A DNA stretch of 20,458 nucleotides. It comes from a virus. Positions 1,829 through 20,458 of the stretch are shown here, piece after piece. How positions within the stretch are numbered: the first letter of the stretch is position 1; every line of letters starts with the position of its first letter. Location of the stretch: the IMG/VR virus record IMGVR_UViG_3300022725_000322, positions 1-20,458 of that record. One strand, written 5' to 3'. Made by a program: the position numbers and the translations under genes. The notes under the pieces are model-generated. The model did no database searches. It saw only the letters and a list, made by a program, of their open reading frames with translations, and was not told the DNA's origin.

Positions 1829-2287
1829 TCAGGCGGGCATCGCCCCGGCCGCGATCGCCCGCACCTGCCCCAGAAGAATGGCCGCGTCGCGGCGCACCTC
1901 ATCCAGCAGCAGATGCTCGCCCCCGCCCGAGAGCAGCGCCGCCCGCCGCAGCTCGTCGGCGATGATCCGCACGACCTCCTCCGCCGCCACCCGCTCGGCC
2001 ACGTCCAGCCGGTCGAGCCCAAGCTCGCGCAGGGCGAAGGCCTCGAGCGCGCCCACGGTCATCAGCTCGCCGCGGGTCAAGGCCTCGAGCGCCGCGGTCG
2101 AGACCGCGAACGCCGTCGCCGCCCGGTCGGGCGAGGCGGTGATCACCTTGGCGGTGACGTAGAGCACGCCCACCTGCGCCAGGCGCTGCGGTGCCTCGGA
2201 GCGCAGCCCGCCTTCACCGGCGCATCCGGCCAGCGTGGCGACGACGAACGCCCCGGCCGCCAGCGCCCGCCGCAGCCCCGGCCGCAT
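1829..2287 (-). CDS. Phage-encoded lipoprotein of unknown function
   Basis: The 152-residue product has a type II signal peptide: basic n-region MRPGLRR, hydrophobic stretch, and lipobox LAGC with the acylated Cys at 22. Residue +2 is Ala, which would normally allow sorting to the outer membrane. The mature part is helical and leucine/alanine rich, with no motif I recognise. Its start codon shares one base with the stop of the upstream 107-residue gene, so it belongs to the terminase transcript. Lipoproteins in a phage late operon are often outer-membrane spanin subunits or superinfection-exclusion proteins, but this one is long for an Rz1-type spanin and no Rz partner is visible. Both roles are inference. 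Confidence 0.7.
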   Translation of the reverse strand: MRPGLRRALAAGAFVVATLAGCAGEGGLRSEAPQRLAQVGVLYVTAKVITASPDRAATAFAVSTAALEALTRGELMTVGALEAFALRELGLDRLDVAERVAAEEVVRIIADELRRAALLSGGGEHLLLDEVRRDAAILLGQVRAIAAGAMPA

Positions 2288-2610
2288 CAGCTGAGCACCC
2301 GTTCGGCGTCGAGGGTGCCCAGCATCTCGCTCACCACGTCGTACCGCCCGGCAAACACAGGTCGTTCGTCGTCGATATGAATGACCCGGGTGCGCCCTTG
2401 ATGGCCGTGGATCGCCAGGACCTGATCGATATCCTCATAGACCACCAACGAGCCGTGGCCGATCTCGTCGTCCGCCCGCCACTGCGTGACGCAGCGCCCG
2501 GAGGGGAGCTCGACCCCCGCCGCGACGATGCCGACCCCCGAGACGCCGGTCGCGTCCTCGACGCGCTCGAGCACGAACCGCCGGAACGCCGGCAAACCCA
2601 CATGTGTCAT
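2287..2610 (-). CDS. Conserved hypothetical phage protein
   Basis: The 107-residue product has a core of the form SG.GI.A.GVELPSGRCV..W with a following IHGHQGRT.VIHID segment. From memory this resembles a small hypothetical family seen in phages and actinobacteria (GV.F.DG.VVLRW ... IHGHGG.T); its function is unknown to me. The ATG at 2608-2610 is chosen because GAGG lies five bases upstream. A GTG six bases earlier (2616) would sit on top of that ribosome-binding site. It is the first gene of the terminase transcript downstream of the 2699-2729 inverted repeat and overlaps the lipoprotein start by one base. Confidence 0.7.
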   Translation of the reverse strand: MTHVGLPAFRRFVLERVEDATGVSGVGIVAAGVELPSGRCVTQWRADDEIGHGSLVVYEDIDQVLAIHGHQGRTRVIHIDDERPVFAGRYDVVSEMLGTLDAERVLS

Positions 2611-2698
2611 CGCCACCTCGCTTCAAACGCGAGCCAGCCAACTCGCATGCCATACCATGGTGCTCACTAAGCCACTGAAACAACACACGACAAGCGTC

Positions 2699-2729
2699 AT
2701 GCACGGTGTCTCGCTCAGACACCGTGCAT
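2699..2729. repeat. 13-bp perfect inverted repeat at the end of the winged-helix operon
   Basis: Arms ATGCACGGTGTCT (2699-2711) and AGACACCGTGCAT (2717-2729) are perfect complements around a 5-base loop. The right arm reaches the stop codon of the 98-residue gene. No T-run follows on the minus strand, so it does not look like a classical intrinsic terminator. The roughly 80-base gap beside it (2617-2698) is clearly poorer in GC than its surroundings, as a control region would be. A second small dyad, CAACC-AGA-GGTTG, follows at 2730-2742. A protein operator or a factor-dependent terminator is possible. Confidence 0.65.
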
Positions 2730-3025
2730 CAACCAGAGGTTGCGTCGTCCAGCGGCACCAGCTCCAGCACCAGGTGCCCGCGCCGCCCGCCGATCGTCTC
2801 GCCCACCATCGCCGCCGTGATCGGCCGCGACGGCACCGCCGCCGCCTTGCGGCAGCGCAGCTCGACATCGCCCACCACCAGCCGCTGCCGCCCCTTCATC
2901 CCGGCCAGGATCTCGTCCTTGAGCTCGGCCTCCTGCCGCGCCGCCTCGCGCGCCGCCGCCTTGGCCGCCCGGTAGCGGTCGACCAGGCCCTGCAGGAGAT
3001 TGCCGCGATAGACGGGGACGCTCAT
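2729..3025 (-). CDS. Small hypothetical phage protein with N-terminal coiled coil
   Basis: The 98-residue product starts at the ATG 3023-3025, which overlaps the stop of the upstream winged-helix gene as ATGA. Residues about 12-42 form a heptad-like, Ala/Glu/Lys/Arg-rich helix. This is followed by a small compact part with the segments LVVGDVELRCRK and ITAAMVGETIGGR. I do not recognise a functional family. The coupling implies co-expression with the winged-helix regulator. Its stop codon lies against the 13-bp inverted repeat. Confidence 0.65.
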   Translation of the reverse strand: MSVPVYRGNLLQGLVDRYRAAKAAAREAARQEAELKDEILAGMKGRQRLVVGDVELRCRKAAAVPSRPITAAMVGETIGGRRGHLVLELVPLDDATSG

Positions 3026-3435
3026 GCGCTGATCCTCGAGCTGGATGGATGATCGGGCGGCGGCGCGTCGTCGTTGCCGGGCACCACCAGGCGGTAGCCA
3101 ACCCCGACGACGTTGAGCACCAGTGCACCGGTGCCGGCGAGCTTGGCCCTGAGCCCGGCGATCACCACCCGGAGCGCCGAGGCGGCGCTGTCCGGCGGCT
3201 CCAGCCAGGCGCCCCACAAGGCCGTCATCAGCTGGTTCACCGTGCCGAGCTCGCGGGTCAGGAGCACCGCCAGCGCCGCCTGCTCCTGCGGCAGCAGCCG
3301 CCGCGGCCCCGCCGGCGCCAGCACCGCCCCCGCCGCCACGTCCAAAGGCAGCCCGGCCACGGCCCGGCGCCAGACCGGGCGCGGCGGCAGGAGCGAGAGC
3401 AGCGGCCGGCCTTCGGGGCCGCGCGGCGGGCTCAT
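3022..3435 (-). CDS. Stand-alone PhoB/OmpR-type winged-helix protein, candidate late regulator
   Basis: The 137-residue product carries a Trans_reg_C-like winged helix at about 29-117: an LPQEQAALAVLL helix, the LGTVNQLMTALWG turn-helix, the recognition helix region ALRVVIAGLRAKL, and the closing wing VVGVGYRLV typical of PhoB/OmpR DNA-binding domains. No receiver domain precedes it, so it is not a normal two-component regulator. The start is the ATG at 3433-3435; the open frame continues upstream to 3657, but that part has no domain and would cross the promoter at 3512-3540. Lying immediately before the terminase operon, it could control late transcription, which is inference from position. 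Confidence 0.72.
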   Translation of the reverse strand: MSPPRGPEGRPLLSLLPPRPVWRRAVAGLPLDVAAGAVLAPAGPRRLLPQEQAALAVLLTRELGTVNQLMTALWGAWLEPPDSAASALRVVIAGLRAKLAGTGALVLNVVGVGYRLVVPGNDDAPPPDHPSSSRISA

Positions 3436-3511
3436 CCGCCCCACCGTGGGCGGCGCGGGGTCGAGGCAATGGTCATCGGCGGCGATCCAGGCGGCAGGGG
3501 CCAGCCAGCCA

Positions 3512-3540
3512 CCTATACCAGACGACGCGATTAGGATCAA
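3512..3540 (-). promoter_or_regulatory. Sigma70-like promoter for the winged-helix operon
   Basis: On the minus strand TTGATC (3535-3540) and TATAGG (3512-3517) are separated by exactly 17 bases. Each matches the sigma70 hexamer at four of six positions in a locally AT-richer patch. A short dyad TAGGA-ATTTGA-TCCTA overlaps the -35 and could be an operator. The expected start site is about 3505, giving a roughly 70-base leader before the ATG. Confidence 0.5.
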
Positions 3541-3734
3541 ATTCCTAGTCCCGGGCCATTGTCGACGCTGCTCCGATAGCCCGCCTTCGAGGCCCTGGCC
3601 AGCCCGCCCGCTCCGGACCCTCTTCATCGGGTCTTCATCGGGTCTCGATCGAGGCACCCGGCACCGCCCGGCCGGAGCGCCGGCGCGCGCCTCTCCGCTC
3701 GTCTTCCAAGCGGCCGCGCCAGCGGCCTCCCTGC

Positions 3735-3796
3735 CGGCCGAAGGCCGCGATGCGTGTTGCCGGCGGCGAGCCGGCGCCTTTTCGGCCGAAGGCCGC
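3735..3796. repeat. Duplicated 14-bp hairpin-forming motif
   Basis: CGGCCGAAGGCCGC occurs at 3735-3748 and again, identical, at 3783-3796. Each copy is itself a GGCC-GAA-GGCC-type hairpin, and a third GC-rich stem lies between them. Use as an origin structural element, a processed RNA or a protein-binding repeat cannot be told apart by eye. Confidence 0.5.
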
Positions 3797-3981
3797 CAGG
3801 GGGAGAGACTCTGATTCTCTTAAGAGAGAGGTAGAGAGGGCGGCGTCCTGCGTGCTCAGACGGCACGCAAATCGACCCTTGGTTTCGTTGTTCTTCAAGG
3901 GCTTGGCGACAAGGCGACGGCGCCGCTGAAAACGGCCGCGCGAGGCCGCGGCGGGCTGGCCGGGTGCTGCCCGGCGCCGCC

Positions 3982-4002
3982 TGTGGATAACTCTGTGGAT
4001 AA
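3982..4002 (-). promoter_or_regulatory. Two tandem perfect DnaA boxes
   Basis: Reading on the minus strand, TTATCCACA occurs twice (3994-4002 and 3982-3990), in the same orientation and 12 bases apart. This is the high-affinity DnaA box sequence. Two perfect copies within 21 bases in a gene-free, otherwise extremely GC-rich block suggest a functional DnaA-binding site for phage replication. Binding has not been shown. Confidence 0.6.
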
Positions 4003-4168
4003 CTTGCTGTTCCGGGGGTCCGAGACGCCCCGACGCGGCCCGAAGCGGCCCGGAATGGCCCCTCGAGCGGGCCGGATCGCCGCCGCCGGCGCGCGCGAAC
4101 GCGCAAAGGGCGCCGCCGGGCCGAGCGGCCCCGTGGCACCCTAGTGCGGCAATGCTAGTCTTTCGTGA

Positions 4169-5020
4169 TCAGGCGGCGGCTGGCGGCGGGTCGACGCCGC
4201 AGCGCTGCGCCAGACGGCCGGGGTCGTCGAGCAGCTCGGGCCACTCCCAGACCCGCAGCGTGCCCAAGAGCGCCTCGCGCATGGCGTTGAAATGCAGGCA
4301 GCCATAGGCGTGCCGCAGCACCAGGTCGCGCCGCGCCCGCATGTCGCGCCAGATCTGCTCGACCCGCTCCATGCTCGCCCCGATCGCCGCCGCCACCAGC
4401 TTCAGCCGCTGGTAGGCGGTCCGCCAGGCGCCCTTGCCGGCGAGCAGCTCGGCCGCCCGCGCCAGCGACACCTCGGCCAGATCGTTGGCCACCTTCATGC
4501 CCGCCTCGCGCGCATGCTGCTGGGCGAAGCGCAGCTTCCTGAGCGCCGCCGCGAAGCCCTCGAACCAGGCCTCGTCCGCCCGCGCCCGCTCGATCACCCG
4601 ATGCAGCCGCTTGACCGCGTTGCCCAGCACGCCCTTGGCCGAGTTCTGCACCGACCGCGCCTCGCTCCAGCGCCGGCCGTTGTCGACGTCGGGCCAGGCC
4701 ACCCGCCCGGACGAGAAGCGCAAGGGCAGGATCGCCCGCACCCGCTGCCAGAGATCGGCGAACCGCTCCGGCCGCACCCTGAGCTGCCGCCGCAGGCGCT
4801 CCAGGTCGAGCGCGATCTCCGGCCCGTCCGCGGCCGCCAGCTTCGCCTCGACCAGCAGCCAGGCCAGCCCCCGCTCGAGCCCCGGCCGGAGCCTCGCCAC
4901 CTGCGCCTCGATCGCCGCCTTGAACTTGGCCGACAGCCGCTCGAACGACAGCGGCTTCTCCGGCGCCGAGGGCGGCGGCGCCCATTCCCAGACGGTGATC
5001 TCGCCGGCGCGCGGGGTCAC
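4169..5020 (-). CDS. Hypothetical phage protein, possibly replication-related
   Basis: The 283-residue product starts with a GTG (5018-5020) that overlaps the stop of the upstream gene as GTGA. The N-terminal half (about 30-140) is helical and arranged like DUF1376-type phage proteins: LAWLLVEAKLAA, then LERLRRQLRVRPERFADLW, then GRVAWPDVDNGRRWSEA. The C-terminal half is also helical and ends with an aromatic segment LRVWEWPELL. The likeness to DUF1376 is weak and by pattern only. The position between the immunity region and the candidate origin would suit a replication accessory protein, but no catalytic motif is visible, so the function remains unassigned. Confidence 0.6.
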   Translation of the reverse strand: MTPRAGEITVWEWAPPPSAPEKPLSFERLSAKFKAAIEAQVARLRPGLERGLAWLLVEAKLAAADGPEIALDLERLRRQLRVRPERFADLWQRVRAILPLRFSSGRVAWPDVDNGRRWSEARSVQNSAKGVLGNAVKRLHRVIERARADEAWFEGFAAALRKLRFAQQHAREAGMKVANDLAEVSLARAAELLAGKGAWRTAYQRLKLVAAAIGASMERVEQIWRDMRARRDLVLRHAYGCLHFNAMREALLGTLRVWEWPELLDDPGRLAQRCGVDPPPAAA

Positions 5021-5418
5021 GCCAGCCCCGCCTCGAGCCAGGCGAAACCATGCACCCGCGCCCGCTTGACGAGGTCGCGCCGCGACGGCGCCGGCAGGAG
5101 GTGCCGCAGACCCGCGCTCAAGAACGCCTCGAACCCTTCCGGCCGCGCCTCGCCGGCGCGCCTCCAGAGCTCGACGAGCAAGGTCAGCAGCAAGAGCTGG
5201 TTATCCCGGAACCGCCGCCCCCACCGGCCGCTCTCCGGCGCCAGCGCCACCGCCGCCCGCAAGAGCCCGAGCCTGTCGATCACCACGTCGAGCTCGGCCC
5301 TGCCCAGCGCCGGCGCCTCGTCCTCGACCACGCAATCGCCGATCAGCGCATCGAAGGGGGCCCAGCCGATCTCCGCGATGGCGCCAGCGAGCCGGTCGTC
5401 CGTCGCCGCCCCGCTCAC
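5017..5418 (-). CDS. Hypothetical phage protein
   Basis: The 133-residue product begins at a GTG (5416-5418) and ends four bases into the next gene, so both are translated together. It is helical throughout, with an IGWAPFDALIGD segment near the N-terminus and a leucine-rich stretch NQLLLLTLLVELWRR at about 73-87. That stretch is amphipathic rather than clearly transmembrane. No known family is recognised. Third-position G/C bias supports coding on this strand. Confidence 0.58.
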   Translation of the reverse strand: MSGAATDDRLAGAIAEIGWAPFDALIGDCVVEDEAPALGRAELDVVIDRLGLLRAAVALAPESGRWGRRFRDNQLLLLTLLVELWRRAGEARPEGFEAFLSAGLRHLLPAPSRRDLVKRARVHGFAWLEAGLA

Positions 5419-5525
5419 CGCTCACCGCCCGCCGGCGGCCCGGCCGGCCTTTGCACCACACGGCCCCGCCCTGCCTTAAGCTCGCCTCCTTTGCGCGGGA
5501 CGGGCAGCGGGACGGGCAGCGGAGC

Positions 5526-5771
5526 GTGACCACCACCAGGACGGCGACCACCAAAACGGCCACCCTCGAGAGCATCGAGCGGCACCTCGCCGGTCTCGCC
5601 GCGAAGACCGCCGGCAAGACCGACCTCCTCGCCCTCGAGGAGCGCCTCGACGACCGCATCGCCGCCATGGAGAGCCGTCACGAGCAGCGCCTCCTGCTCA
5701 TGGAGGCCCGCATCGCCGCCGTGCTCCGGGAGATGATGGCGGCCATCGCCGCCCCCTTCCCCCCGGCCTGA
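5526..5771 (+). CDS. Small coiled-coil protein
   Basis: The 81-residue product starts at a GTG (5526-5528). An upstream ATG in the same frame (5451) is less likely because the intervening codons lack the bias and include a 12-bp tandem repeat (two copies of GGGACGGGCAGC around 5498-5521). After a Thr-rich start, residues about 15-75 form a long charged helix with Leu/Ile/Met heptads and repeated IAAMES/MEARIAA patterns, a dimeric coiled coil. Nearly every third base is G or C in this frame, which favours plus-strand coding over the minus-strand frame at 5415-5681. The function is unknown. Confidence 0.55.
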   Translation: MTTTRTATTKTATLESIERHLAGLAAKTAGKTDLLALEERLDDRIAAMESRHEQRLLLMEARIAAVLREMMAAIAAPFPPA

Positions 5772-5989: not shown

Positions 5990-6214
5990 ATGCCCTACGA
6001 CGAGGCCGAGCGCGACGCCGACGGCCTCGCCCGCCTGGTCGAGCCGGGCGCCACGCGGCGCTTCGGCGTCGACGTCGCCGGCCTCCCCGCCGGCGGGCGC
6101 GTCCTGGTCGAGCTCGTCGTCGAGCTGCGCCCGACCGACAGCCCTTGGCCGTGGTCCAGGCACCGCCGGCGCGCCCGCCTCTGGCTCACACTGCCCGCGC
6201 GGGATCCCGCCTGA
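5990..6214 (+). CDS. Small hypothetical protein with uncertain 5' end
   Basis: From the ATG at 5990 the product has 74 residues, but the same frame is open and protein-like further upstream (5939-5989 reads AIAGLYDWLGRQPGNG), with no ATG, GTG or TTG at a sensible place. The visible protein has PYDEAERDADGLARLVEPG, then VDVAGLPAGGRVLVELVVEL, ending in an Arg-rich tail. The upstream stretch contains eight G (5873-5880) and seven C (5890-5896), so a frame change there, natural or from sequencing, may have removed the real start. It converges with the Cro-like gene, two bases apart. Confidence 0.45.
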   Translation: MPYDEAERDADGLARLVEPGATRRFGVDVAGLPAGGRVLVELVVELRPTDSPWPWSRHRRRARLWLTLPARDPA

Positions 6215-6216
6215 CC

Positions 6217-6513
6217 TCACGCCCCCGCCTCCGCACGACGCGGGCGGGCACGCGACGGCGCCTTCCTGCCCGCGTAATTCCGCCCCTTGGCGATCAAGCG
6301 ACGGGATGCAGCGATGGCGCGAGAATCGTCGACCTCGAGCCCGTGATCTCGGCAAAGCGCAGCGAAGGCCGGCCACGCCGCGGCCGGAACCCCCCGCCGT
6401 TGCCAGTTCACAACGGTCGTGCGATGGGCGCCGAGCCGCTTAGCAACGGCCTCGGCGCCCCCTAGTGCGATGATGAGCCCTTTGTCCGGGCTCTCTCCTA
6501 GCGCGCGTCTCAT
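6217..6513 (-). CDS. Cro/YdaS-like helix-turn-helix regulator
   Basis: The 98-residue product has a single compact helix-turn-helix at about 12-60: LIIALGGAEAVAKRLGA, then HRTTVVNWQRRGVP as turn and recognition helix, then AWPAFAALCRDHGLEVDD. This matches the YdaS/Cro-like fold that opposes a CI-type repressor in lambdoid switches. The tail is basic (GRKAPSRARPRR). The ATG at 6511-6513 is chosen because the domain starts immediately after it; the longer frame to 6792 runs antisense through the repressor gene. No Shine-Dalgarno is evident, so the message may be leaderless or nearly so. Confidence 0.75.
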   Translation of the reverse strand: MRRALGESPDKGLIIALGGAEAVAKRLGAHRTTVVNWQRRGVPAAAWPAFAALCRDHGLEVDDSRAIAASRRLIAKGRNYAGRKAPSRARPRRAEAGA

Positions 6514-6588
6514 GGCTGTGTTTTGTGCTACTGCATGACGGCATTCAAGCAAAAAGTGAAACGTGACCCAATCGGCCTCGCCGTCACA

Positions 6589-6912
6589 ATGCGGGACATG
6601 CCCAACCCGACACGAAACGCAGACTGGCTCGAGGCCGTCGGCGGCAGACTCGCCGCGACGCGCGAAGCGCTCGGCCTCCGGCAAGAGGAGCTGGCGCTCC
6701 AGGTCGGCGTCAGCCGATCCGCTCTCGCCAATTGGGAAACCGGCAGAAGCCTGCCGGACGCTGCCGCGATCGCGCGCTTCGCCGAGCGCCATCGGATTAC
6801 GCTCGACTGGATCTATCGCGGCGATCCGTCGGCGCTACCTCAATCGCTAGCGCAAAAGGTGCTCGGGGAATCTACCCCATCAAAAGCCACCATCGCCCGC
6901 GCCGCCACCTGA
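6589..6912 (+). CDS. Xre-family (CI-like) phage repressor
   Basis: The 107-residue product has a classic HTH_3 domain at about 17-76: VGGRLAATREALGL, RQEELALQVGVSRSALANWE with recognition helix SRSALANWETGR, then PDAAAIARFAERHRITLDWIYRGD. It lacks the C-terminal peptidase/dimerisation domain of lambda CI, so RecA-induced self-cleavage is not expected. The start is uncertain: TTG 6523, ATG 6535, 6589 and 6598 are in frame with no clear Shine-Dalgarno. The AT-leaning third positions before 6589 suggest that part is regulatory. It diverges from the Cro-like gene, forming the lysis-lysogeny switch. Confidence 0.78.
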   Translation: MRDMPNPTRNADWLEAVGGRLAATREALGLRQEELALQVGVSRSALANWETGRSLPDAAAIARFAERHRITLDWIYRGDPSALPQSLAQKVLGESTPSKATIARAAT

Positions 6913-9941: not shown

Positions 9942-10216
9942 TGGCCGAGGACGAGCGCCCGTTCACCCTGCAGCGCCTGGCCGTGCGCTGGAGTACGTCG
10001 GCGCGCACATTGCGCGACCAGTGCAAGACAGGTGCACTACCGGCTTTTCGCGTGGGGCATAGCTGGAGGGTGCCGGCATGGGCGGTGAGGGATCGCGAGA
10101 CCTGCGGCTCAAGCTCTACCGCGGCAGCTGGTGCGCCGTCTGGCACGACCCCGAACGCGGCACCCAGCGGCGCAGTCTCCGCACCCAAGATCGTGATGTT
10201 GCCGAGCGCGCGCTGA
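9941..10216 (+). CDS. xis: Excisionase-type helix-turn-helix protein
   Basis: The 91-residue product starts with FTLQRLAVRWSTSARTLRDQ and continues CKTGALPAFRVGHSWRVPAWAVRD, the HTH_17/excisionase pattern: recognition helix, G.LPAFRVG wing, and R(V/I)P...V closing helix, at residues about 8-52. Such proteins bend attachment-site DNA and steer the integrase toward excision. Beyond residue 52 the sequence is low-complexity Ala/Ser/Pro because the frame overlaps the integrase gene by 139 bases in a different frame. Its start shares one base with the previous stop. Direct coupling to int and the nearby att site support the call. Confidence 0.75.
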   Translation: MAEDERPFTLQRLAVRWSTSARTLRDQCKTGALPAFRVGHSWRVPAWAVRDRETCGSSSTAAAGAPSGTTPNAAPSGAVSAPKIVMLPSAR

Positions 10217-11067
10217 TCGACTTTCGCCGGGCGTTGGCCCGACCGGCCGGCGAGACCGTGGGCGCGATCATGGCCGCCTACCTCGCGGAGAAGGACCAGA
10301 CGGCAGCGGCACCCGGGCGTCTCCGCGAGGCCTGGCGCGCCCTGGAGCCGCATCTCGCCCACTATCGCCCGGACCAGGTCGATCGCCCGGTCTGCCGCGC
10401 CTATGCGGCAGCCAGGGCCAAAGGCGGAGTCGGCCCCGGCACCATCGGCAAGGAGCTCGGCACGCTTCGCGCCGCCTTGCGCTGGCACGATCCGCGGACC
10501 CCGGCCGTGATCGAGCTGCCGCCGGCGCCGCCGCCGCGCGAGCGCCACTTGAGCCGCGACGAGGCCAGGGCCCTGATCGCCGCCTGCCGGGCCCCGCACG
10601 TCCGCCTCTTCGTCGTCCTGGCGCTCACCACCGCCGCCCGCAAGGCAGCACTCCTGGGCCTGACCTGGAACCGGGTGGACCTCGAGCGCGGCGTGGTCCG
10701 TCTCGCCCCGGGCACTGGCGAGGGCGGCAGGAAGGGCCGTGCCACCGTGCCGCTGCACGACCTCGCCCGCCCGCATCTCCTCGAGGCGCGGCGCGGCGCG
10801 CTGACCGGCCACGTCATCGAGCACGGCGGCAAGCCGCTCACCTCGATCAGGAAGGGCTTCGAGAACGCCTGTGCCCGGGCCAACCTGCCCGGTGTCACGC
10901 CGCATGTGCTTCGCCACACCGCTGCGGTCTGGATGGCCGAGGCCGGCGTGCCGATGAGCGAGATCGCCCAGTATCTCGGGCACAGTGACGAGCGCACGAC
11001 CTATCGCGTCTATGCGCGCTTCTCGCCCGACTACTTGCGCCGCGCCGCCTCCGCCATCGATTGGTGA
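10078..11067 (+). CDS. int: Tyrosine-family phage integrase 1
   Basis: The 329-residue product is a complete tyrosine recombinase for site-specific integration and excision. An N-terminal arm-binding part (about 8-45, LKLYRGSWCAVWHDP) is followed by a SAM-like core-binding domain (about 57-137) and the catalytic domain. Catalytic residues are R188 (TTAARKAALLGLTW), K219, H276-x-x-R279 (PHVLRH), H302 (YLGHSD) and nucleophile Y312 (RVYARF). All are present, so it should be active. The ATG at 10078 is within the excisionase gene. The stop is about 120 bases from the tRNA-derived att core. Its catalytic domain is clearly related to integrase 2 (GTIGKELG.LRAALR, GLTW.RVDLER, TPHVLRH). Confidence 0.93.
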   Translation: MGGEGSRDLRLKLYRGSWCAVWHDPERGTQRRSLRTQDRDVAERALIDFRRALARPAGETVGAIMAAYLAEKDQTAAAPGRLREAWRALEPHLAHYRPDQVDRPVCRAYAAARAKGGVGPGTIGKELGTLRAALRWHDPRTPAVIELPPAPPPRERHLSRDEARALIAACRAPHVRLFVVLALTTAARKAALLGLTWNRVDLERGVVRLAPGTGEGGRKGRATVPLHDLARPHLLEARRGALTGHVIEHGGKPLTSIRKGFENACARANLPGVTPHVLRHTAAVWMAEAGVPMSEIAQYLGHSDERTTYRVYARFSPDYLRRAASAIDW

Positions 11068-11383: not shown

Positions 11384-12391
11384 ATGCAGCGCATCGACCC
11401 GGCACGCTACCGGCTCCGCCGGTTCCCCAACGGCATCTGGCGGATCGTCTGGACCGAGAACCGGGTCACCCGCTCGCGATCGACGGGGGCTCGCAACCAG
11501 GCCGAGGCGGCGATGGCGCTCGCCCGGCTGATCGAGGCCGAGCGCAGCGGCGGGGCCGGCGCCCGCCCGACCGTCGCCGCCGTGATCGAGCTCTACCTCG
11601 ACGAGCGGCGCGGCATCGCCGCCGATCACGGGCGGCTGCAGCACGGTGCCAAGGCGCTTCGCCGGCTGCTCGGCTGCCGCTTCGCGGATGAGCTCCGCCC
11701 GACGGACGGCCGCCGCTATGCCGAGGCACGCCGGATCGAAGGAGTCGGCGCCGGCACGATCGGCCAGGAGCTCGGCCAGCTTCGCGCCGCGCTCCGCCTG
11801 GCGCACGAAGAGGGCATGATGGGCCCGCCGCCGCTGCTCAAGGGCCCGTCACGTCCCCAGCCGAGACAGCGCTGGCTGAGCCGCGAGGAAGCGGCGCGGC
11901 TGCTCGACGCTTGCGGCGTTGCACACCTCCGCCTGTTCGTTGCGCTCGCCATGCACACCGGTGCGCGCTCGGGCGCCATCCGCGGCCTCACATGGGACCG
12001 GGTCGACCTCGAGCGGCGGCTGATCGATTTCGCCGACCCGGAGAAGCAGGCGACGAAGAAGGGCCGGGCCATCGTGCCGATCAACCGCACGCTGGCCGGG
12101 ATCCTCGAGGCGGCGCTGCCCCGCGCCGACTCGGCCTATGTGGTGAGCTGGCGCCGGCGGCCGATCGGCGACCCGCGCCGCGCCTTCGCCGCCGCGGCGC
12201 GGCGTGCCGGCCTCGAGGGCGCCACCCCGCACGTGCTCCGGCACTCGGTCGCCACCTGGCTCGACCAGGAGGGCATCGACCTTCGCCGGGTCGCCGGCGT
12301 GCTCGGCCACAGCGACAGCCGGACCACCGAGCGGGTCTACGTCCACCGCCGCGCCGAGCTGCTCCGCGACGCGGTCGAGGCGATCGCCTAG
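11384..12391 (+). CDS. Tyrosine-family phage integrase 2
   Basis: The 335-residue product has the full tyrosine recombinase layout: N-terminal part YRLRRFPNGIWRIVWTEN (about 9-26), core-binding domain (about 60-140), and catalytic domain with R195 (HTGARSGAIRGLTW), Lys in the QATKKGRAIVPI turn (about 225-226), H283-x-x-R286 (PHVLRH), H309 (VLGHSD) and Y319 (ERVYVHR). It looks intact. It starts at ATG 11384 with GAGG about six bases upstream and lies 146 bases beyond the tRNA fragment. It is a divergent paralogue of integrase 1. Its TAG stop falls on CTAG 12388-12391, which is also the stop of the opposing late gene. No excisionase accompanies it. Confidence 0.92.
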   Translation: MQRIDPARYRLRRFPNGIWRIVWTENRVTRSRSTGARNQAEAAMALARLIEAERSGGAGARPTVAAVIELYLDERRGIAADHGRLQHGAKALRRLLGCRFADELRPTDGRRYAEARRIEGVGAGTIGQELGQLRAALRLAHEEGMMGPPPLLKGPSRPQPRQRWLSREEAARLLDACGVAHLRLFVALAMHTGARSGAIRGLTWDRVDLERRLIDFADPEKQATKKGRAIVPINRTLAGILEAALPRADSAYVVSWRRRPIGDPRRAFAAAARRAGLEGATPHVLRHSVATWLDQEGIDLRRVAGVLGHSDSRTTERVYVHRRAELLRDAVEAIA

Positions 12392-12870: not shown

Positions 12871-15800
12871 TCAGACGTTGACGGCCGTCAGCTTCTTGCC
12901 CGGCCGGGCAATCAGCTTCAAGGCCCGCGGGTTGTGCTGCGCCGGGAAAACCCCCGGCCCGCGATAGGCGATCAGCGGCTCGGGCTGCTGTCGCAGCGTG
13001 GTGTGCACATACGCCTCGCGCATTTCGCCGGCGGCAGCGCCGGTGCCGCCGCCGTCGGTGACATCGCCGATGATGTCGTCGCGCTCGAAGCTGACCACGA
13101 CCGCGGCGGCCAGGCGGTGCCACCAATCGGTAGCGTGGTCGCTCGACGCGAAGGCGTCCGCGATCGGCGTCTCGCTCGACCCGCCGCCGCCGTCGTCCCA
13201 GACGATCGGCGGGTCGGCGGGTGCTGCCGCCAGGTTCAGCCCGTGATAGTGCGAGACGCGGATCCCGTTCTCGAAGCCGGTCGGCTCGGCGGCACCGTTG
13301 ATCGTGACCGTCGCGTCGCCCTCGAGCTGCGACAGGAACATCGCCTCGCCGCCCGCATAGGCCGGCATGCGGCGCCAGTCGTTGAGGATCACCAGCGAGG
13401 CCGACGCGGCATAGACCTGGCCGGCGCTGGTCACCTGCACCGAGAAATCCTCGACCGTGTCCGTCTCGCCGAGGATCGCCATCCAGGAACGGTGCGTCGG
13501 CGCCGAGTTCCAGACCCCGGCATATTCCGGCGAGGCGCCGGCCGGGTCCGGCACGTGATCGCCGTTGCCGGCGACCGCTATCGCAACCACCCCCGCCGGC
13601 CAGACCACGTCGATCGGCACCGCCGCTTCCTGGCGATGCGTCACGACGACGGAGAGGATCGCCACCTGCCCCATGCCGACCGGCCGGAAGCCCGCGCCGC
13701 CGAGCGTGAAGTCCATGACCTCGACCATCGGATCGCCGGTGCCGTCATAGGAGACCGCGTCGATATCCACCGCTGCGCTCGGCGTGATCACCTCGTCGCT
13801 GGCTCCCAAGTCGAGCGAGACCTCGTCGCCCTCGAACAGCAGGTTGTACTCGCGCGCCGCGCCGGCCGCACTGGGAAACGCGTCGTCGTTGAAGGTCACG
13901 GTCACCGGCTCGGCATTCTCGAAGAGCACCATGCGCCGGGTGATGCGCCCCGAGGCGAACGTCTGGTCGATCTCGTCGTCGACGGGTGCCGCGACGACGA
14001 GGATGTCGTCGGAGCCCTCGACATCCGCTGCCAGCGCGTCGACGTCGGCCGCGAGCGCCCCGATCGCCGTCTGCGCATCGGCTGCGGCGATCGGCAGTCC
14101 TGTATCGTCGAAGGTGACAGCCGATGCCGCCGGCGTGCCCGGCGTCGCCGAGGGCGTGCTCTGGGTGACGTTCGAGAGGAGCCAGGTCGTCGCGGAGGTG
14201 CGCTCGATGACATAGAGCACCGTTTCGCCCGGCTCGACCGTGAGCAGCGCGCCCGCCGCCGCCGTGGTCCCGGCCGTCACGGCGATATCGACGGTGCCCG
14301 TCGACGCGTTGCGGACATAGAGCTCGCCGACCTCGGGCCCCGAGACCGGCACCAGCACCGCACCGTCGAAGCGCAGCTCGACCGTGCCCGGCGAGGCGAA
14401 GGTCGCGGCCAGCACGCCGCCCAGGTCGCCCCGCTGCACGGTGTAGGTGTAGTTGTCGGCCGACGGGTTGCCGACGCCCGAGGTGCCGATCGCCACCACC
14501 TTGCGCGTCCGGCTCGGATTGCCGATCACGTCGACATAGACCGCGGCCGTGCCGACGCCGGTGCGGACATAGTCGAGCTGGACGATCGAGCCCTTCTCGC
14601 GCGCCGTCACCTCGCCGCCGATCACCGCGGCACCGTAGAGCGTGACCCCGGTGCCGGCGACGAAGCGCAGCCCGCCGTCGCCCTCGGCCCGCAGGCGGAA
14701 CCGCAGGGCGCCGCGATGCACGTTGCCGAGGCTTTCGTCGTCGCGCACCAGGCCCGCCGGGATGGTGACCGTCTGCAGGGTGGCGCGGTTGTAGGTCGCG
14801 AGCTTGCCGGCGTCGTTGCGCGAGAGCGTGTAGGTCTCGCCGGTGCGGTTGAGCTGCGCCACCGTGAAGCCGGGCCGGATGGTCAGCGGCGCCCAGCCGC
14901 CGACATAGGACGCCCCGCCGTCCTCGCGATCGTCGATGCTCGCGTAGAGCCCCGGACCGGTCCACCAGACAGGGGACGTCTCGGGGGTGGCGACGCCGAG
15001 CGCCGCCGGCACCGCGGCATGGATCATCGCATGCGGCAGCCCGCCGCCGAGCCCCGGCGATTCGCTGAGCGGCGTCAGCCAGAGCGGGTCGGCGATCTCG
15101 ACCCGCTGCAGCGGCCCGATCGCCAGCCCGCCCGAGAGCTCGAAGTCGGGCCCGTTGCCGATCTTGATCCGCGCCTCGCGCGGTGGATCCATGCCCATGC
15201 CCTGCGGCATGAAGATGTGCCCCTCGCGTTGGGCGTGGCCGACACGGATCCCGAGCGTGGAATGCGGCGAGCGGTATTTGACCGTGGTCGACCAGGGCCG
15301 GTCGGTCTCCTGCTTGAGCGAGGAGATGTAGAGCGCCTCGTCGTCGGTGAGGCGCATCGCCAGCGCCGGGTTGCTCGACCCCGGCCGTGACCACCAGAGA
15401 TTGCCGGGCGGCAGGAAGCTGTCGTTGACGCTCGCCGGCGCGTCCTCGTTTGCGGCGAGGCCGCTGTCGTAGGAGCCGTTCGCCGGGTTGGGCAGGCGAG
15501 GGGCGATGCCGAAGCCGCCGGAGACGGTGTTCCAGCCGACCGTGCCGTCGGTATAGGCCGGATGGATCAGGTCTTGCCCGGTCCCGTTGCTGTCCGACCA
15601 GTTGACCCCGTTGTTGAGCGCCTGGCAGCCGATCCAGACATTGTCGCGGCTGGTGCGCCCCTGGCCATAGCCGACCGGCGGGTCGCTCGGCACCGGCACG
15701 CCGTCGACCAGGTCATTCGAGACGCCGCCCTTGTAGCCGGTGATGCGCACGAAGGTCTCGGCCGACTCGCCGTTCAGGCAGATGAAGCTGCACTTGCGGA

Positions 15801-18800
15801 CGTTGTGAAAGCGATAGGCGATCGACCCCTTCCAAGAATGGGTCGAGCCGGTCGGCACGGTCAGCGGCGTGACCCCGTCGCCGGGATCGATGATGATGCC
15901 GCCCGGGCTCGGCGCCTGAAACTGCGTCCGGCTCAGGACCATGTTGTTGAAAGCGCCGAAGACCGGGTGCGTGCTCTCGCTCATCAGCTGAATGCCGATC
16001 CAGTCGATCACGTCCGAGCCCTTGAGGCTGATCTCCTGCAGCAGCGAGTCGCCGTAATTGACGTTGCGCTCGTCGGCGACGTCGGCCGCCCAGAACCGGA
16101 TCCCGTTGGCGTAGAGCTCGAAAGGCCCGCCGCCGTAGCCGCCGCTGATATTGGCGATGTAGCATTCGTTCGAGGCGCGCAGATCGATGCACCAGTGCTG
16201 CGGGTCGGCCCCCTCGGCGGTGTTCGCCCGCCCCTTGCCGCCGTAGAAATTCACGTCGTGAATGCGGATTTCGTGGCCGAAGCCCTTGATCCCGCCGCGA
16301 TCCATGCGCACCGAGAGATGCGAGACGTGACTGCGGCACCAGTCGAGCGTGCCGGCGGTCCCGTCGGCGTTGCGCTGCAGATCGAGCCAGAGCGCGCCCT
16401 CGGCATCGATCACCGTGATATCGACGCCGATGCCGAAAACCCGTGAGCCGGGCGGCACCGACTGGACCGCGGCGAAGCGGAAGAGCCCGGGGCCGAAGGC
16501 GACATAGCCGAGCTCGGCCAGCATCGCCTGAAAGGCCGTGTCGCAATACTCGACGCCCGTCGCGTCGCCGCCGTAGTCGGCGATCGTCAGAGCGCCGCCG
16601 CTTTGCTCCTCACCGCCGCCGTCGCCGCCGGTGCCGGCCAGCGGCACGAGCAAAGCCGTGCCCGAGTGCGGCTGCGCCCCCGTCACCCGCGGGTGCACGA
16701 CGATCGCCCCGGCGCTGTCGCCGATCGCCAGCCAGGGCAGCGAGCCGTCGCCCACGCCGTCGACCACCGCCGGCCCGATGATCGCCGTCGGCGAATCGTC
16801 GAGCACCGCCGAGCCGGCGACGTCGCGGATGGTCACGTCGCGCACGGCCGGCTTGTCGCAGCGATGGACCCTGAACGGCACCGCCGCCCGCTCGATCCGC
16901 AGCTGCGTCATGTCGATTTTCGAGACCGGCCGGTAGGGCGCGCCGACATGTTCCCAGCCGTCGACCGTGCCGCTGGTATGCACCGGCGCTGCGCCGCCGA
17001 GCTTGACCTCGGCCGTGCGGTAGAGCCGCCCGCCGTTCTCGACATGGACCGGCCGCTCGGCCGTGCCGGCGAATTCCTCGTCGACCACCCAGGCCGGCGC
17101 CCGCCCGTCGATCACGACCGGCTGTGCTGTGCCGGCGAAGCTGCCCTCGATCTCGATATTCGAGATCGGCCAATCGGGCGCACGCTTGTTGGCCTCGATC
17201 TTGACCCCGATCGTCGCCGGCGTGTCGGTCTCGTTGTCGCGCACCTTGACGCTTCGCGCCCCGGCACGCAGCAGGATCGCCACCGCGTTCGGGCCATGAA
17301 AGCCGACGAGCCGGTTGCGCTCGATCAGCGCGTCGCGATCGCCGAACAGGTGATAGCCGTTCGAAACCTCGATACCCTTCTGCACGGGGCGATCGGGCAA
17401 GGCCGGGCCGGCCACGACCAGGTTGTCGAGGACCTTCACGCCCTGGCCGTTCTCGCCGTGGCCGCAGTCGATCGCCGACTGCCAGCTGTCGACGACGGTA
17501 TTCCGGGTGATTTCGATGCCGACGCCGCTGCCGGGCGTGATGCCGTGGCGGCAGCCGACCATGAGCATCCGCTCGACGACCGTGCCCGAGCAGCCCTTGA
17601 GCCAGACGCCGTTACTGTCGCCGCCGACATCCACGTGGTGCGGGTACCAGCGCTCGCTGCCCCAGTGCCGGCCGTCGGCCGACAGATGCTCGCGGATCAG
17701 GGCACCGCGCACGTCGTGCGTGGTCTCGCGCCCGTCCAGGCGAAAGCCGTGGCTCTTGGCGCGCACACAGTGGCGGAAGTTGACGATGTGCCGGCGCGCG
17801 CTTCCCGGCGCTGCGGTCGGCTCGATCGCCCGCGGCCCCTCGATCTCGAGGTCGAAGCAGGGGACCAGGCCCGTCACCCGGGCGCGCTTGGGTGAGCCGT
17901 CGAGCTCGACCCGCAGCTTGCCGCGGATCGCCCGGTCGAGGATCAGCGCGTGCGCCCCGGCGTCGTGCGCCGCGACGCGCGCCATCTGCCGCATCAAGCG
18001 CTCTTGGCTGACGCCGACGAAGTCCGCGGCGATCGTGTCGTCTTGCGCCAGCACCCAGGAGCCGACCGCGAAACGCGAGAGCGGCACCTCGGCCGGCAGC
18101 GGCACCTCGGCGCTGTCCTCGAGGTCCGCCTCGAGCTCGACCTCGTCGACCACCGAGATCAGCGTATCGTCGGTGAAGCCCGGCTCGCCGATCTTCGGGT
18201 GCGCACTGTCCGGCCAGGTCCGCCGCCAGACACCGCCGGGCACCGAGGAGGGCAGGCCGTTCTCGAGCTCGATCGTGAATCGGTTGGCCGTGCCGGTGGG
18301 CGTGACCGCAACGATCGCGTCCTCGTGGTAGTGCGTGTCGAGCACGATGCCGTCGGCGCCGTTCTCGCCGCGCAGCACAAACGGCGCCCCCGGCCGCAGC
18401 ACCGACACGTCGCCACCTTGCGGGCCGGCATCGATATCGAAGGTGGTGACCGGCCCGCCGGTGGCGTCGACATCCTGCCAGAGCTTGAACAGCCCGGAGC
18501 CCGGCAGCTCCCTGATCCGCCCGTCGCCCCTGATCTCGGCGTTCGGGCCGGGCAGGAGGTCGACACCCTTGAAGCTCACCTTGAACGGCCGCTCGGTCGG
18601 ATTCATGATCCGCACGAAGCCGGCGTAATGGATCCCGCGACCAGCCGGGCCCTCGAAGGTGATACCCGGCTCGCCCGCGTCGATCGCCGCCTGTATCGCC
18701 ACGGTGAGCGCGTCGGTCTCGTCGGTCGTCCGGTCGGCCAAGAGCCCGTGCAGGCTTCCCGCCGGCGCCGGATCGCCGCCGCCCCCGCCGTCGCCCCCCA

Positions 18801-19299
18801 ATGTCTCGGGATCGACCACGATCGGCTGGCCGGCTCCGTTGAAGCCGAGCAGCCGGCCGGCCCGCCCGCCGGCCGCCGGCAGGGGGTTGAGCGTGCCCGT
18901 CTCGAAATCCGGCATGCGCAGGACGCGGGCGCTCGGCGTGCCGATCGCCGCCTGCCAGTCCTGATCGTAGAAGGTCAGCCGGTCGAGCGCCCGCTCCAGC
19001 GCCGCCAGGTCCAGCCGCGCCTTGGACGAGACGGTCCGCTCCTGCAGTGCTCGGGTCTTGCGCTCGACATGGATCAGGGCACCGGCCGGATAGACCGTCG
19101 TCGTCGTGAACGTGCCGCTTTGCTGCAGCGTCGCCGAGGCGTCGAAATCCGCCGGCCAGGCGAGCGGCGTCGATAGACCGTCGACCACCAAAGTCGCGAC
19201 CAGGTCCTTCGGGTGGTCGAAGCCGAAGGTCAGCGGCCAGGACGTCGTGAGACCATCGCAGGCGAGCGTTTGCGATCGGTTCGAGCTGGTGACGGTCAT
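12871..19299 (-). CDS. Giant tailspike/tail fibre protein with two beta-helix modules
   Basis: The 2142-residue product is a receptor-binding or polysaccharide-degrading tail protein. Residues 1-90 match the virion-attachment adaptor seen at the start of T7-like fibres and tailspikes (TSWPLTFGFDHPKDLVATLVVDG ... LIHVERKT). A short helical collar follows (95-118), then a poly-Gly linker (168-175). Module 1 (about 185-885) begins DETDALTVAIQAAID and contains right-handed beta-helix-like repeats (VVERMLMVG, GIEITRNTVVDS, VKVLDNLVVAG). After linker GTGGDGGGEEQSGG, module 2 (about 903-1290) starts again with a pectate-lyase-3-like ADYGGDATGVEYCDTAFQAML. The region 1300-1720 has small beta domains, a short coiled coil lies near 1745-1765, and the C-terminal third is beta-rich. 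Catalytic residues cannot be assigned. ATG 19297-19299. Confidence 0.85.
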   Translation of the reverse strand: MTVTSSNRSQTLACDGLTTSWPLTFGFDHPKDLVATLVVDGLSTPLAWPADFDASATLQQSGTFTTTTVYPAGALIHVERKTRALQERTVSSKARLDLAALERALDRLTFYDQDWQAAIGTPSARVLRMPDFETGTLNPLPAAGGRAGRLLGFNGAGQPIVVDPETLGGDGGGGGDPAPAGSLHGLLADRTTDETDALTVAIQAAIDAGEPGITFEGPAGRGIHYAGFVRIMNPTERPFKVSFKGVDLLPGPNAEIRGDGRIRELPGSGLFKLWQDVDATGGPVTTFDIDAGPQGGDVSVLRPGAPFVLRGENGADGIVLDTHYHEDAIVAVTPTGTANRFTIELENGLPSSVPGGVWRRTWPDSAHPKIGEPGFTDDTLISVVDEVELEADLEDSAEVPLPAEVPLSRFAVGSWVLAQDDTIAADFVGVSQERLMRQMARVAAHDAGAHALILDRAIRGKLRVELDGSPKRARVTGLVPCFDLEIEGPRAIEPTAAPGSARRHIVNFRHCVRAKSHGFRLDGRETTHDVRGALIREHLSADGRHWGSERWYPHHVDVGGDSNGVWLKGCSGTVVERMLMVGCRHGITPGSGVGIEITRNTVVDSWQSAIDCGHGENGQGVKVLDNLVVAGPALPDRPVQKGIEVSNGYHLFGDRDALIERNRLVGFHGPNAVAILLRAGARSVKVRDNETDTPATIGVKIEANKRAPDWPISNIEIEGSFAGTAQPVVIDGRAPAWVVDEEFAGTAERPVHVENGGRLYRTAEVKLGGAAPVHTSGTVDGWEHVGAPYRPVSKIDMTQLRIERAAVPFRVHRCDKPAVRDVTIRDVAGSAVLDDSPTAIIGPAVVDGVGDGSLPWLAIGDSAGAIVVHPRVTGAQPHSGTALLVPLAGTGGDGGGEEQSGGALTIADYGGDATGVEYCDTAFQAMLAELGYVAFGPGLFRFAAVQSVPPGSRVFGIGVDITVIDAEGALWLDLQRNADGTAGTLDWCRSHVSHLSVRMDRGGIKGFGHEIRIHDVNFYGGKGRANTAEGADPQHWCIDLRASNECYIANISGGYGGGPFELYANGIRFWAADVADERNVNYGDSLLQEISLKGSDVIDWIGIQLMSESTHPVFGAFNNMVLSRTQFQAPSPGGIIIDPGDGVTPLTVPTGSTHSWKGSIAYRFHNVRKCSFICLNGESAETFVRITGYKGGVSNDLVDGVPVPSDPPVGYGQGRTSRDNVWIGCQALNNGVNWSDSNGTGQDLIHPAYTDGTVGWNTVSGGFGIAPRLPNPANGSYDSGLAANEDAPASVNDSFLPPGNLWWSRPGSSNPALAMRLTDDEALYISSLKQETDRPWSTTVKYRSPHSTLGIRVGHAQREGHIFMPQGMGMDPPREARIKIGNGPDFELSGGLAIGPLQRVEIADPLWLTPLSESPGLGGGLPHAMIHAAVPAALGVATPETSPVWWTGPGLYASIDDREDGGASYVGGWAPLTIRPGFTVAQLNRTGETYTLSRNDAGKLATYNRATLQTVTIPAGLVRDDESLGNVHRGALRFRLRAEGDGGLRFVAGTGVTLYGAAVIGGEVTAREKGSIVQLDYVRTGVGTAAVYVDVIGNPSRTRKVVAIGTSGVGNPSADNYTYTVQRGDLGGVLAATFASPGTVELRFDGAVLVPVSGPEVGELYVRNASTGTVDIAVTAGTTAAAGALLTVEPGETVLYVIERTSATTWLLSNVTQSTPSATPGTPAASAVTFDDTGLPIAAADAQTAIGALAADVDALAADVEGSDDILVVAAPVDDEIDQTFASGRITRRMVLFENAEPVTVTFNDDAFPSAAGAAREYNLLFEGDEVSLDLGASDEVITPSAAVDIDAVSYDGTGDPMVEVMDFTLGGAGFRPVGMGQVAILSVVVTHRQEAAVPIDVVWPAGVVAIAVAGNGDHVPDPAGASPEYAGVWNSAPTHRSWMAILGETDTVEDFSVQVTSAGQVYAASASLVILNDWRRMPAYAGGEAMFLSQLEGDATVTINGAAEPTGFENGIRVSHYHGLNLAAAPADPPIVWDDGGGGSSETPIADAFASSDHATDWWHRLAAAVVVSFERDDIIGDVTDGGGTGAAAGEMREAYVHTTLRQQPEPLIAYRGPGVFPAQHNPRALKLIARPGKKLTAVNV

Positions 19300-19323: not shown

Positions 19324-20458
19324 CTATGGTCGCTCATCTGCCGGCCGGCGTTGCAAGAGCGCGTGCCGGAGCGCCTCGCCGACGCTCTCGGGCTCGGCGT
19401 CGTGGACGAGCCAGTCCCAGAAGAACTCGCCGGTAATCCAGAGCTGCCGCCCCGGCAGCTGCCCCCAGATCGACAGGGTCAGGAAGGCGTTCTGCGCCGC
19501 CGAGCGGTTGTCGAGATTGCCCGTCGCCAGGTCCGCCCCGGCCCGCGCCAGGCCGGCGAACGCATCCGAGATCGGCGAGAGCTCGAAGCCGAAGTCGGAG
19601 GTCGCCGCCCCGACGATGTCGCGCAGCCCGACGACGCTCGCGGCCGGGTAGGCCAGCAGCTGCTTGCCGGCCCAGAGGGCGAGATCCTCGTCCTCCTCCG
19701 GGCCGCGGCCGGCGATCAGCTCGCCGAGGATCGCCGGCGCCAGCCAGAGCATGGCCATCGCTCCGACGAATTGCGGATAATCGGCCGGCCGCTTGAAGTC
19801 GGTCTTCCTGAAGGTCCGCTCGAATTGATTGAAGAGGACCGAGAACCACGAATAGAACATGGTGAAGATGCGACTCAGCTCCGAGCCGCGCTGGATGCGC
19901 GCCAGGTCCTTGGCCCCGCCGGCCGACTGGGTCATCCTGACGGCGGCATCGGCCGCGGCCACGGCATCGGCCTCCGGCGCGCCGGGGTTCTGCGCGATCG
20001 CCTTCTGGTAGGCGCCGTGCCAGGTCGGCAGGGCCACCGCCATGTCGAGGAAGCCGGTGAGCCAGAAATAGCTCTGCTCGATGCCGGAGAGCGGCCCGGT
20101 CCTGGTCAGCCGCCGGACCGTGTCCTTGACGTCGCGATCGAAGCTCTTCGCCCGGTTGGCCAGCTCGGGGCTGCGGGCGAAGGCGAAGTCGCGGGCGGCG
20201 ATGATCGAGAGCGGGCCGCGGCCGAAGACCTCCTTCAGGCCCAGGGCCGCCCATTTGGGCCCGATGAAGGAGACGGTGGTGAGGAAGCCCAGGGGCTGGA
20301 CGATCGCCGTCGTGATCTTGAGACCCATGTTGACGATGGTGGTGCCGGTGCGGGCCCGGGCCAGGATCGCCTCGATGCCGACGCCGGGGTCGTAGGCCGG
20401 GGCGGCGATGCTCTTGAGCCAGGGCGAGAGCAGCCGGTAGACGTCGCGGCCGGCGGCC
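19324..20458 (-). CDS. Large virion-associated (polyvalent/internal virion) protein, C-terminal part
   Basis: The frame is open through the right edge; 377 residues are visible and the N-terminus lies outside, so the ATG at 20326-20328 is internal. The sequence DVYRLLSPWLKSIAAP ... ILARARTGTTIVNMGLKITTAIVQPLGF, then GFLDMAVALPTWHGAYQKAI and AVRMTQSAGGAKDLARIQRGSELSRIFTMFYSWFS matches, from memory, the conserved C-terminal region of very large phage proteins carrying polyvalent-protein-associated domains, which are probably ejected with the DNA. Hydrophobic helices occur at about 50-65 and 230-250 of the visible part. It lies 24 bases upstream of the tailspike in the same transcript. The exact domain name is uncertain. 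Confidence 0.72.
   Translation of the reverse strand, partial: AAGRDVYRLLSPWLKSIAAPAYDPGVGIEAILARARTGTTIVNMGLKITTAIVQPLGFLTTVSFIGPKWAALGLKEVFGRGPLSIIAARDFAFARSPELANRAKSFDRDVKDTVRRLTRTGPLSGIEQSYFWLTGFLDMAVALPTWHGAYQKAIAQNPGAPEADAVAAADAAVRMTQSAGGAKDLARIQRGSELSRIFTMFYSWFSVLFNQFERTFRKTDFKRPADYPQFVGAMAMLWLAPAILGELIAGRGPEEDEDLALWAGKQLLAYPAASVVGLRDIVGAATSDFGFELSPISDAFAGLARAGADLATGNLDNRSAAQNAFLTLSIWGQLPGRQLWITGEFFWDWLVHDAEPESVGEALRHALLQRRPADERP

Follow-up and report, generated by a model that had tools for sequence, protein, structure and literature searches.

The basal unwinding system (BUS) of bacterial oriC consists of tandem DnaA boxes, separated by a gap of at most 3 bp, together with a DnaA-trio (PMC8287927). 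E. coli DnaA in vivo prefers double boxes, in which two boxes of the same orientation lie 2-3 bp apart (Stringer et al. 2024, PMC11317965). DnaA boxes are also known from plasmid origins, that of P1 included (PMC4980987), and one published drawing shows a predicted phage origin that includes them (PMC11512268). Among the open-licence papers listed by the searches there were single mentions of boxes in phages and no survey of paired ones.

The stretch of DNA analysed here (the window, a virus record of 20,458 bases) carries a double DnaA box in a non-coding block among its early genes. Like the BUS, it has tandem boxes with a gap of no more than 3 bp; unlike the BUS as described in PMC8287927, it has neither a DnaA-trio nor an AT-rich strand-opening region next to the boxes. 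It shares with E. coli double boxes the two sites and a 3-bp gap, both sites being perfect in the window, but the E. coli examples are DnaA-bound genomic sites (PMC11317965), whereas those of the window are known from sequence alone. Iteron-plasmid origins (RK2/TrfA, P1/RepA and RepA plasmids) place DnaA boxes beside an initiator gene, a role that we propose for the gene adjoining the window's boxes; the window differs in showing no Rep family match, no clear iterons and no adjacent AT-rich region. As in the early region of BPP-1 and in the lambda-type O/P module, the window has a replication slot between a Cro-like gene and the terminase, all on one strand. The slot is filled by a primase in BPP-1 and by an orphan protein of 283 amino acids (aa) in the window, and this protein, unlike those of the lambda-type module, does not align with O-like proteins.

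Results

The window is a fragment of about 20 kb from an incomplete genome, with genes assigned by codon-phase analysis and profile searches. It is a genuine BPP-1-like fragment from a phage of GC-rich bacteria, whose host is probably an alphaproteobacterium. Terminase genes, two integrases and a BPP-1-like late gene uphold the view that the DNA is of phage origin, and contamination by host chromosome was rejected on the same grounds. On the minus strand, the gene for the terminase large subunit TerL (1-1230; phrog_2, 9e-35; phrog_5902, 1e-59) is truncated at the contig end and is followed by that for the small subunit TerS (1227-1763; Pfam Terminase_2, 8e-22; phrog_51, 2e-26). A winged-helix transcription regulator of the Trans_reg_C family (3022-3435, minus strand; Pfam PF00486, 27.6 bits against a cut-off of 26.2) is the next gene downstream of the block. 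Upstream of the block lies the gene for the 283-aa orphan protein (4169-5020, minus strand), recognised by its codon-phase signal, and directly upstream of it on the same strand is a second gene found by codon phase (5017-5418), whose 133-aa orphan product had no match in family profile searches. The leftward gene set is headed by a Cro/YdaS-like regulator with a carph-isopro domain (6217-6516, minus strand; NCBIfam NF046037, 38.4 bits against a cut-off of 38; phrog_8008, 1e-10). Between this gene and the orphan genes there are two plus-strand frames, of which the first (5451-5771) has coding phase and the second (5990-6214) is small. A CI-type repressor (6523-6912, plus strand; HTH_3, 4e-13; Phage_CI_repr, 7e-6) diverges from the Cro-like gene.

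Two tyrosine recombinases of the phage-integrase family stand in tandem (10078-11067 and 11384-12391), with late genes next to them. These are a 2142-aa open frame (12871-19299, minus strand) with weak matches to tail and pre-neck appendage families, and a phrog_9880 gene (19324-20328, minus strand; 31% against bbp10 of BPP-1). In BPP-1, Cro, methylase, primase, terS and terL share one strand and cI occupies the opposite one. The diversity-generating cassette of BPP-1 sits in the part of its genome that matches the 12871-19299 and phrog_9880 region. Judged against the BPP-1 layout, the window seems to span the attachment site in the non-integrated form of the phage.

The original prediction, made from the letters of the sequence, held that two perfect DnaA boxes lie in the same orientation 12 bp apart. 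Exact copies of TTATCCACA do occur on the minus strand at 3982-3990 and 3994-4002, with a start-to-start distance of 12 bp and a 3-bp gap, and the whole reads TTATCCACA GAG TTATCCACA (3982-4002). The boxes stand 166 bp past the stop of the 283-aa gene, along that gene's strand, and about 2.2 kb from terS. A first-order Markov model gives an expectation of 0.0068 perfect boxes in the window, both strands counted, and of 2e-9 pairs with a 2-3 bp gap. Because both boxes fall inside a perfect 12-bp tandem duplication (CTGTGGATAACT twice, 3981-4004), they are not independent, and 0.0068 rather than 2e-9 is the fair figure; so exact a duplication suggests that the second box may have arisen as a copy of the first. 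With one mismatch allowed, the window contains three sites against a mean of 0.46 over 100 shuffles, and there are no further sites with up to two mismatches in 3436-4300.

Gene calls leave 733 bp free around the boxes (3436-4168), and the codon-phase GC signal is flat in 300-bp windows from 3451 to 4200, so that the predicted gene-free block is real and slightly longer than had been claimed. The dyad TCTCTTAAGAGA (3816-3827) and the duplicated hairpins (3718-3748 and 3766-3796, 77% alike) were also correctly recognised. The purine-rich tract proved weak: nowhere in 3436-4168 do purines, or pyrimidines, continue for 12 or more bases without a break. On the minus strand, RNA folding gives z = -3.1 for 3660-3845 and z = -0.9 for 4010-4168; DNA folding of 3680-3845 on the plus strand gives z = -1.6. 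An 11-bp repeat, TCTTCATCGGG, lies at 3621-3645. Imperfect 10-bp repeats resembling CCCGAAGCGG occupy 4020-4059, about 17 bp from the boxes; none of 500 shuffles matches their periodicity, but 6 of 508 segments of the window do. As a speculative suggestion from their sequence, these repeats would be candidate initiator sites. Two GANTC sequences at 3807 and 3813, which we take to be possible CcrM methylation sites, compare with 0.64 expected per 733 bp and are not significant alone.

No AT-rich unwinding element lies beside the boxes, the nearest minima being at 3806-3885 (about 95 bp away) and 3511-3560 (more than 400 bp away). Direct reading of the GC-rich sequence that adjoins the boxes reveals no DnaA-trio after them, and within the window, which is only a fragment of the genome, there is no switch of GC skew at the block. 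Rfam and tRNA scans found nothing, and the block DNA has no match among phages and plasmids at E 1e-5. A consensus scan of 3400-4300 detected no sigma-70-like promoter. By eye, a promoter-like site (TTGATC, 17 bp, TATAGG) can be seen on the minus strand at 3500-3535, before the winged-helix gene and near the most AT-rich spot of the block; it is absent from the output of the consensus scan.

The closest relative of the window (IMGVR_UViG_3300023199_000252, 17,230 bases, hereafter L002) provides a natural comparison. By blastn the two are 97.4% identical over 1-1825 and 91.8% over 1838-3843; homology then stops at about 3843 and resumes only at 5575. The block is thereby divided into a conserved half (3436-3843), which contains the tandem hairpins (3718-3796), the dyad, the 11-bp repeat and the two GANTC sequences, and an exchanged half (3844-4168), delimited by blastn and binned identity, which contains the double box. 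Bins of 50 bp are 94-98% identical from 3551 to 3800, whereas identity is 0.36-0.48 over 3851-4100 and 0.76 over 4101-4150. The conserved half differs by a single indel of 1 bp, which fits non-coding DNA. No box with zero or one mismatch occurs in the 17,230 bases of L002, and one with two mismatches lies near the block. Beyond the breakpoint, L002 has a 452-aa counterpart of the 283-aa gene, and the adjoining DNA is largely unrelated.

Because L002 differs in both, the exchanged segment that contains the boxes also contains the neighbouring gene, of which the two phages have deeply diverged alleles. Conservation of the boxes in close relatives, one of the two conditions on which the predicted origin had been made to depend, fails in the closest one; their absence there coincides with the exchange of the neighbouring gene, a case that the prediction had not foreseen. 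From these sequences, the gene and its boxes appear to form a single exchangeable module, as expected of an initiator and its origin.

Other features of L002 may be recorded here. Four copies of a 28-bp hairpin, GGGGCGGCGCATCATGGTGCGCCGCCCC, at 677, 1313, 1928 and 2580, separate three minus-strand open reading frames of about 170 aa (735-1262, 1356-1877 and 2029-2529), two of which have similar starts. The arrangement is like that of a gene-cassette array. The hairpin has no match in the window with up to four substitutions, and the three reading frames have no match in Pfam.

In a single pairwise comparison the 283-aa and 452-aa proteins are 25% identical over 173 residues (E = 1e-8). They have in common an RVxWPD motif, which in the models follows, at low confidence, a part predicted to be helix-turn-helix-like. 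The 283-aa protein has no family or database match and no relatives were found apart from its L002 counterpart, for which none were found beyond its own record. A sequence search of solved structures gave a best E of 0.31 for the 283-aa protein. Its model (pLDDT 63.5) has three helices and a hairpin at 48-108, which at low confidence suggest a winged-helix-like N-terminus. That model has no match at E <= 0.001 among solved or viral folds, nor does the 452-aa model match anything at this threshold in the viral fold library, the only one searched with it. A profile built from the two sequences found nothing in 289 genomes and is uninformative. When this two-sequence profile was compared by hhalign with seven O-like proteins, a probability of 0.2 and an E of 0.36 were obtained, which amounts to no alignment. 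The protein is best described as a putative initiator or helicase-loader component.

The original prediction also held that phages seldom need host DnaA sites, and this is not supported by the viral data. At least 119 stretches of viral_contigs contain the exact 22-mer TTATCCACAGAGTTATCCACAG, and none contains the control, the same letters reversed. In eighty of these loci, the 88.8 kb that lie no more than 600 bp from the pair contain 261 boxes, of which at least 160 are the pairs themselves; the remaining 610.5 kb contain 42. Spacing was assessed in a separate sample of at least 120 stretches with direct box pairs and gaps of 0-28 bp, where spacings peak at 11, 12, 20-22 and 32 bp (118 loci). 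After dereplication, with each spacing counted once per cluster (70 clusters), 42 of 89 have gaps of 2-3 bp against 6.1 expected if the 29 spacings are taken as equally likely. The peak falls on the gap lengths favoured in vivo by E. coli DnaA (PMC11317965).

A short query around the boxes, run at E <= 10, matches 677 of 50,697 phage records, a figure from which no rate can be drawn because it includes partial matches and many near-identical phages. Double boxes are present in six annotated records, from phages of Shigella, Pseudomonas, Klebsiella, Microbacterium and Streptomyces and from one gokushovirus, although these records were taken from the best matches among the 60 listed, so that double boxes were to be expected in them. 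In the gokushovirus, the small single-stranded DNA phage Gokushovirus WZ-2015a, three double boxes lie between VP4 and VP5 within about 270 bases, if up to one mismatch per box is allowed; two of the three share a box. The 21-base pattern of the pair was found in none of the four genomes behind four prophage loci.

Plasmids offer parallels to the window. Sixteen of 56 matching records were opened, and a one-mismatch test identified a double box in eight, six of which have annotated genes. In four of these six a replication initiator gene lies at the pair or within 600 bp of it (plasmids of Methylocystis, Methylomagnum, Xanthomonas with trfA, and Selenomonas); the other two have no initiator gene within 600 bp. 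The pair is at or beyond the 3' end of the initiator gene in three of the four, as it is with the 283-aa gene of the window. The Methylocystis parvus plasmid has an exact 24-bp match in the 3' end of repA, with boxes that point against the strand of the gene, whereas those of the window point along it. In the Xanthomonas IncP plasmid a perfect double box lies 489 bp past the 3' end of trfA. The eight matches that are not double boxes by the one-mismatch test include two that are still near an initiator gene. E. coli accounts for 29 of the 56 matches, and the one E. coli record opened has no double box by this test and no annotated initiator within 3 kb.

The neighbours of the viral pairs were counted twice, with open reading frames called by a simple longest-first script. 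The first count covered 80 of the at least 119 loci with the 22-mer and used a control set that favoured long genes. Among the 25 of 142 families listed, replication initiators reached 9 of 132 near proteins per family, with 6 DnaD-like loaders, 5 primases, 4 helicases, 6 TerS and 4 TerL; none of these kinds appeared among the 25 of 211 families listed for 104 far proteins. This count is inflated because the contigs are related (234 loci form 113 clusters). A repeat count took a single representative from each cluster and chose its controls at random. It covered 150 of the 184 near proteins and 150 of the 179 far ones, and for each set 25 of 215 families are listed. Two initiator families, the DnaD-like loaders and one TerS family then have 3 of 150 near proteins each, and initiator, DnaD-like and TerS families are absent from those listed (down to two members) for the 150 control proteins. 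The control does hold a helicase family (2), and TerL is at least as frequent there as near boxes. The neighbour data lean towards a replication role, weakly after dereplication.

A TerL related to that of the window is present at 19 of the 234 box loci. Of these, 16 have the pair upstream of terL at a distance of about 600 bp or less; several of the 16 are near relatives, and not all are independent. At one of the 234, L160, the pair lies between an Sf6-like terS and terL. Searching from TerL instead, 110 related loci include only two, L217 and L229, with boxes at most 60 bp apart (spacings of 20 and 15 bp), although many of the 110 are too short to cover the box region. The two boxes of L217, which do not form a double box, are in the gap before TerS. 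In two phage records boxes stand near an end of the record: Shigella phage A7 (at 123) and Klebsiella phage vB_Kpn_3 (at 589), the latter record being partial. At L160 (3414-3458) and at L094, L106, L120, L133, L134, L158 and L162, all from GC-rich phages, a related terL is preceded by four or five perfect boxes, mostly in steps of 11-12 bp; the Sf6-like terS beside the array was seen in L160, the sole locus checked.

Discussion

That the block serves as a phage origin at which DnaA assists, partnered by the 283-aa protein, is an evenly balanced proposition. The block would then be the non-coding part of a phage replication module. Host DnaA would bind cooperatively to the double box, whose sites and spacing are observed. 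The 283-aa protein, encoded just upstream, would act as a phage initiator or helicase loader on the neighbouring DNA, possibly at the 10-bp repeats, and the two proteins together would separate the strands and bring in the host helicase DnaB. Such an origin would work in the manner of an iteron plasmid, with DnaA as a helper, and not in that of a chromosomal origin served by DnaA only. A DnaA-only oriC was itself considered and rejected, since there is no DnaA-trio and no AT-rich region adjoining the boxes.

Several lines of evidence argue for an origin. The perfect double box is far beyond chance and has the arrangement preferred by E. coli DnaA (PMC11317965). The Cro-like gene, the orphan genes, the boxes, TerS and TerL share a strand, as in the BPP-1 plan, and the boxes and the 283-aa gene have been exchanged jointly relative to L002. 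Among viruses the 22-mer recurs (at least 119 stretches against none for the reversed letters), spacings peak at gaps of 2-3 bp, and initiators, DnaD-like loaders, primases and helicases are found among the neighbours of pairs; in plasmids, four of six double boxes with annotated genes lie at or near an initiator gene. Against an origin stand the lack of an adjacent AT-rich element or DnaA-trio, of a skew switch within this fragment and of a recognisable initiator. The leftward genes do not form an unbroken operon, given the plus-strand frames at 5451-5771 and 5990-6214; the neighbour signal is small after dereplication; boxes lie just upstream of terL in 16 of 19 loci with a related TerL; and closely placed pairs are confined to L217 and L229 among the 110 TerL-related loci. 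The predicted phage origin is plausible and still the best reading, in view of its position beside an early gene in the slot that a primase has in BPP-1, the joint exchange and the plasmid and phage parallels, and it falls short of proof.

The double box might instead control transcription, with bound DnaA repressing or activating transcription that continues from the early genes into those of the winged-helix regulator and the terminase, and thereby tying late expression to the growth state of the host. The boxes do have early genes on one side and a regulator gene on the other, those of L217 occupy the gap before TerS, and in E. coli, where DnaA has a gene regulon, double boxes bound by it are found upstream of purH, polA and mutH (DARS2) (PMC11317965). 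Joint movement of a protein and its binding sites would, moreover, be equally expected of a regulator with its operator. Yet the consensus scan of 3400-4300 for sigma-70-like promoters was negative, and the conserved half of the block, which is the half nearest the regulator, is the one without boxes; we regard control of transcription as rather unlikely. The placement of pairs close upstream of terL, several in near relatives, that of L160 between terS and terL, and the boxes near the record ends of phages A7 and vB_Kpn_3 suggest another role, in which bound DnaA would stall injected DNA, a mechanism proposed for the injection stop signal of T5-type phages, mark the packaging region, or be titrated off the host chromosome. 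The T5-like signal, described with DnaA boxes (PMC13250531), resembles the window in combining such boxes with repeats and dyads in phage DNA, but the boxes of the window are among early genes and are not known to be near a genome end. They lie some 2.2 kb away from terS, in L002 both they and the early gene beside them differ, TerL is not enriched near boxes after dereplication, and two boxes are few for titration. A role in DNA entry, packaging or host interference is accordingly one that we would be slow to accept.

It could also be that the pair is a passive leftover, acquired with host or plasmid DNA or arising as a chance 12-bp duplication without function. Its absence from the closest relative and the exact tandem duplication of the unit would suit such a history, as would the pairs with gaps of 2-4 bp in 22 of 289 genomes from the class of the alphaproteobacterial host of one viral locus (L218). 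But neither copy has a mismatch, although this GC-rich genome gives an expectation of 0.007 perfect boxes, and the peak in viral spacing is far from random, so that lack of function appears improbable.

Under the preferred reading, a DnaA-assisted phage origin, the kind of origin present in the window is already known, because DnaA boxes have been described in plasmid origins and in one predicted phage origin. The part worth following is the breadth of the double-box pattern across phages. We suggest, as a doubtful but specific generalisation, that one and the same high-affinity double box serves many unrelated phages in recruiting host DnaA, and that the box in the window is half of a swappable cassette with a new initiator family, the allele of the window being DnaA-dependent and that of L002 DnaA-independent. 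The double-box motif is a cheap and precise search pattern for candidate phage origins. If the generalisation is true, the window and L002, near-identical phages with and without the box, would constitute a natural test of DnaA dependence, and host DnaA, the master regulator of bacterial replication, would be a routine target of phages and not an exception.
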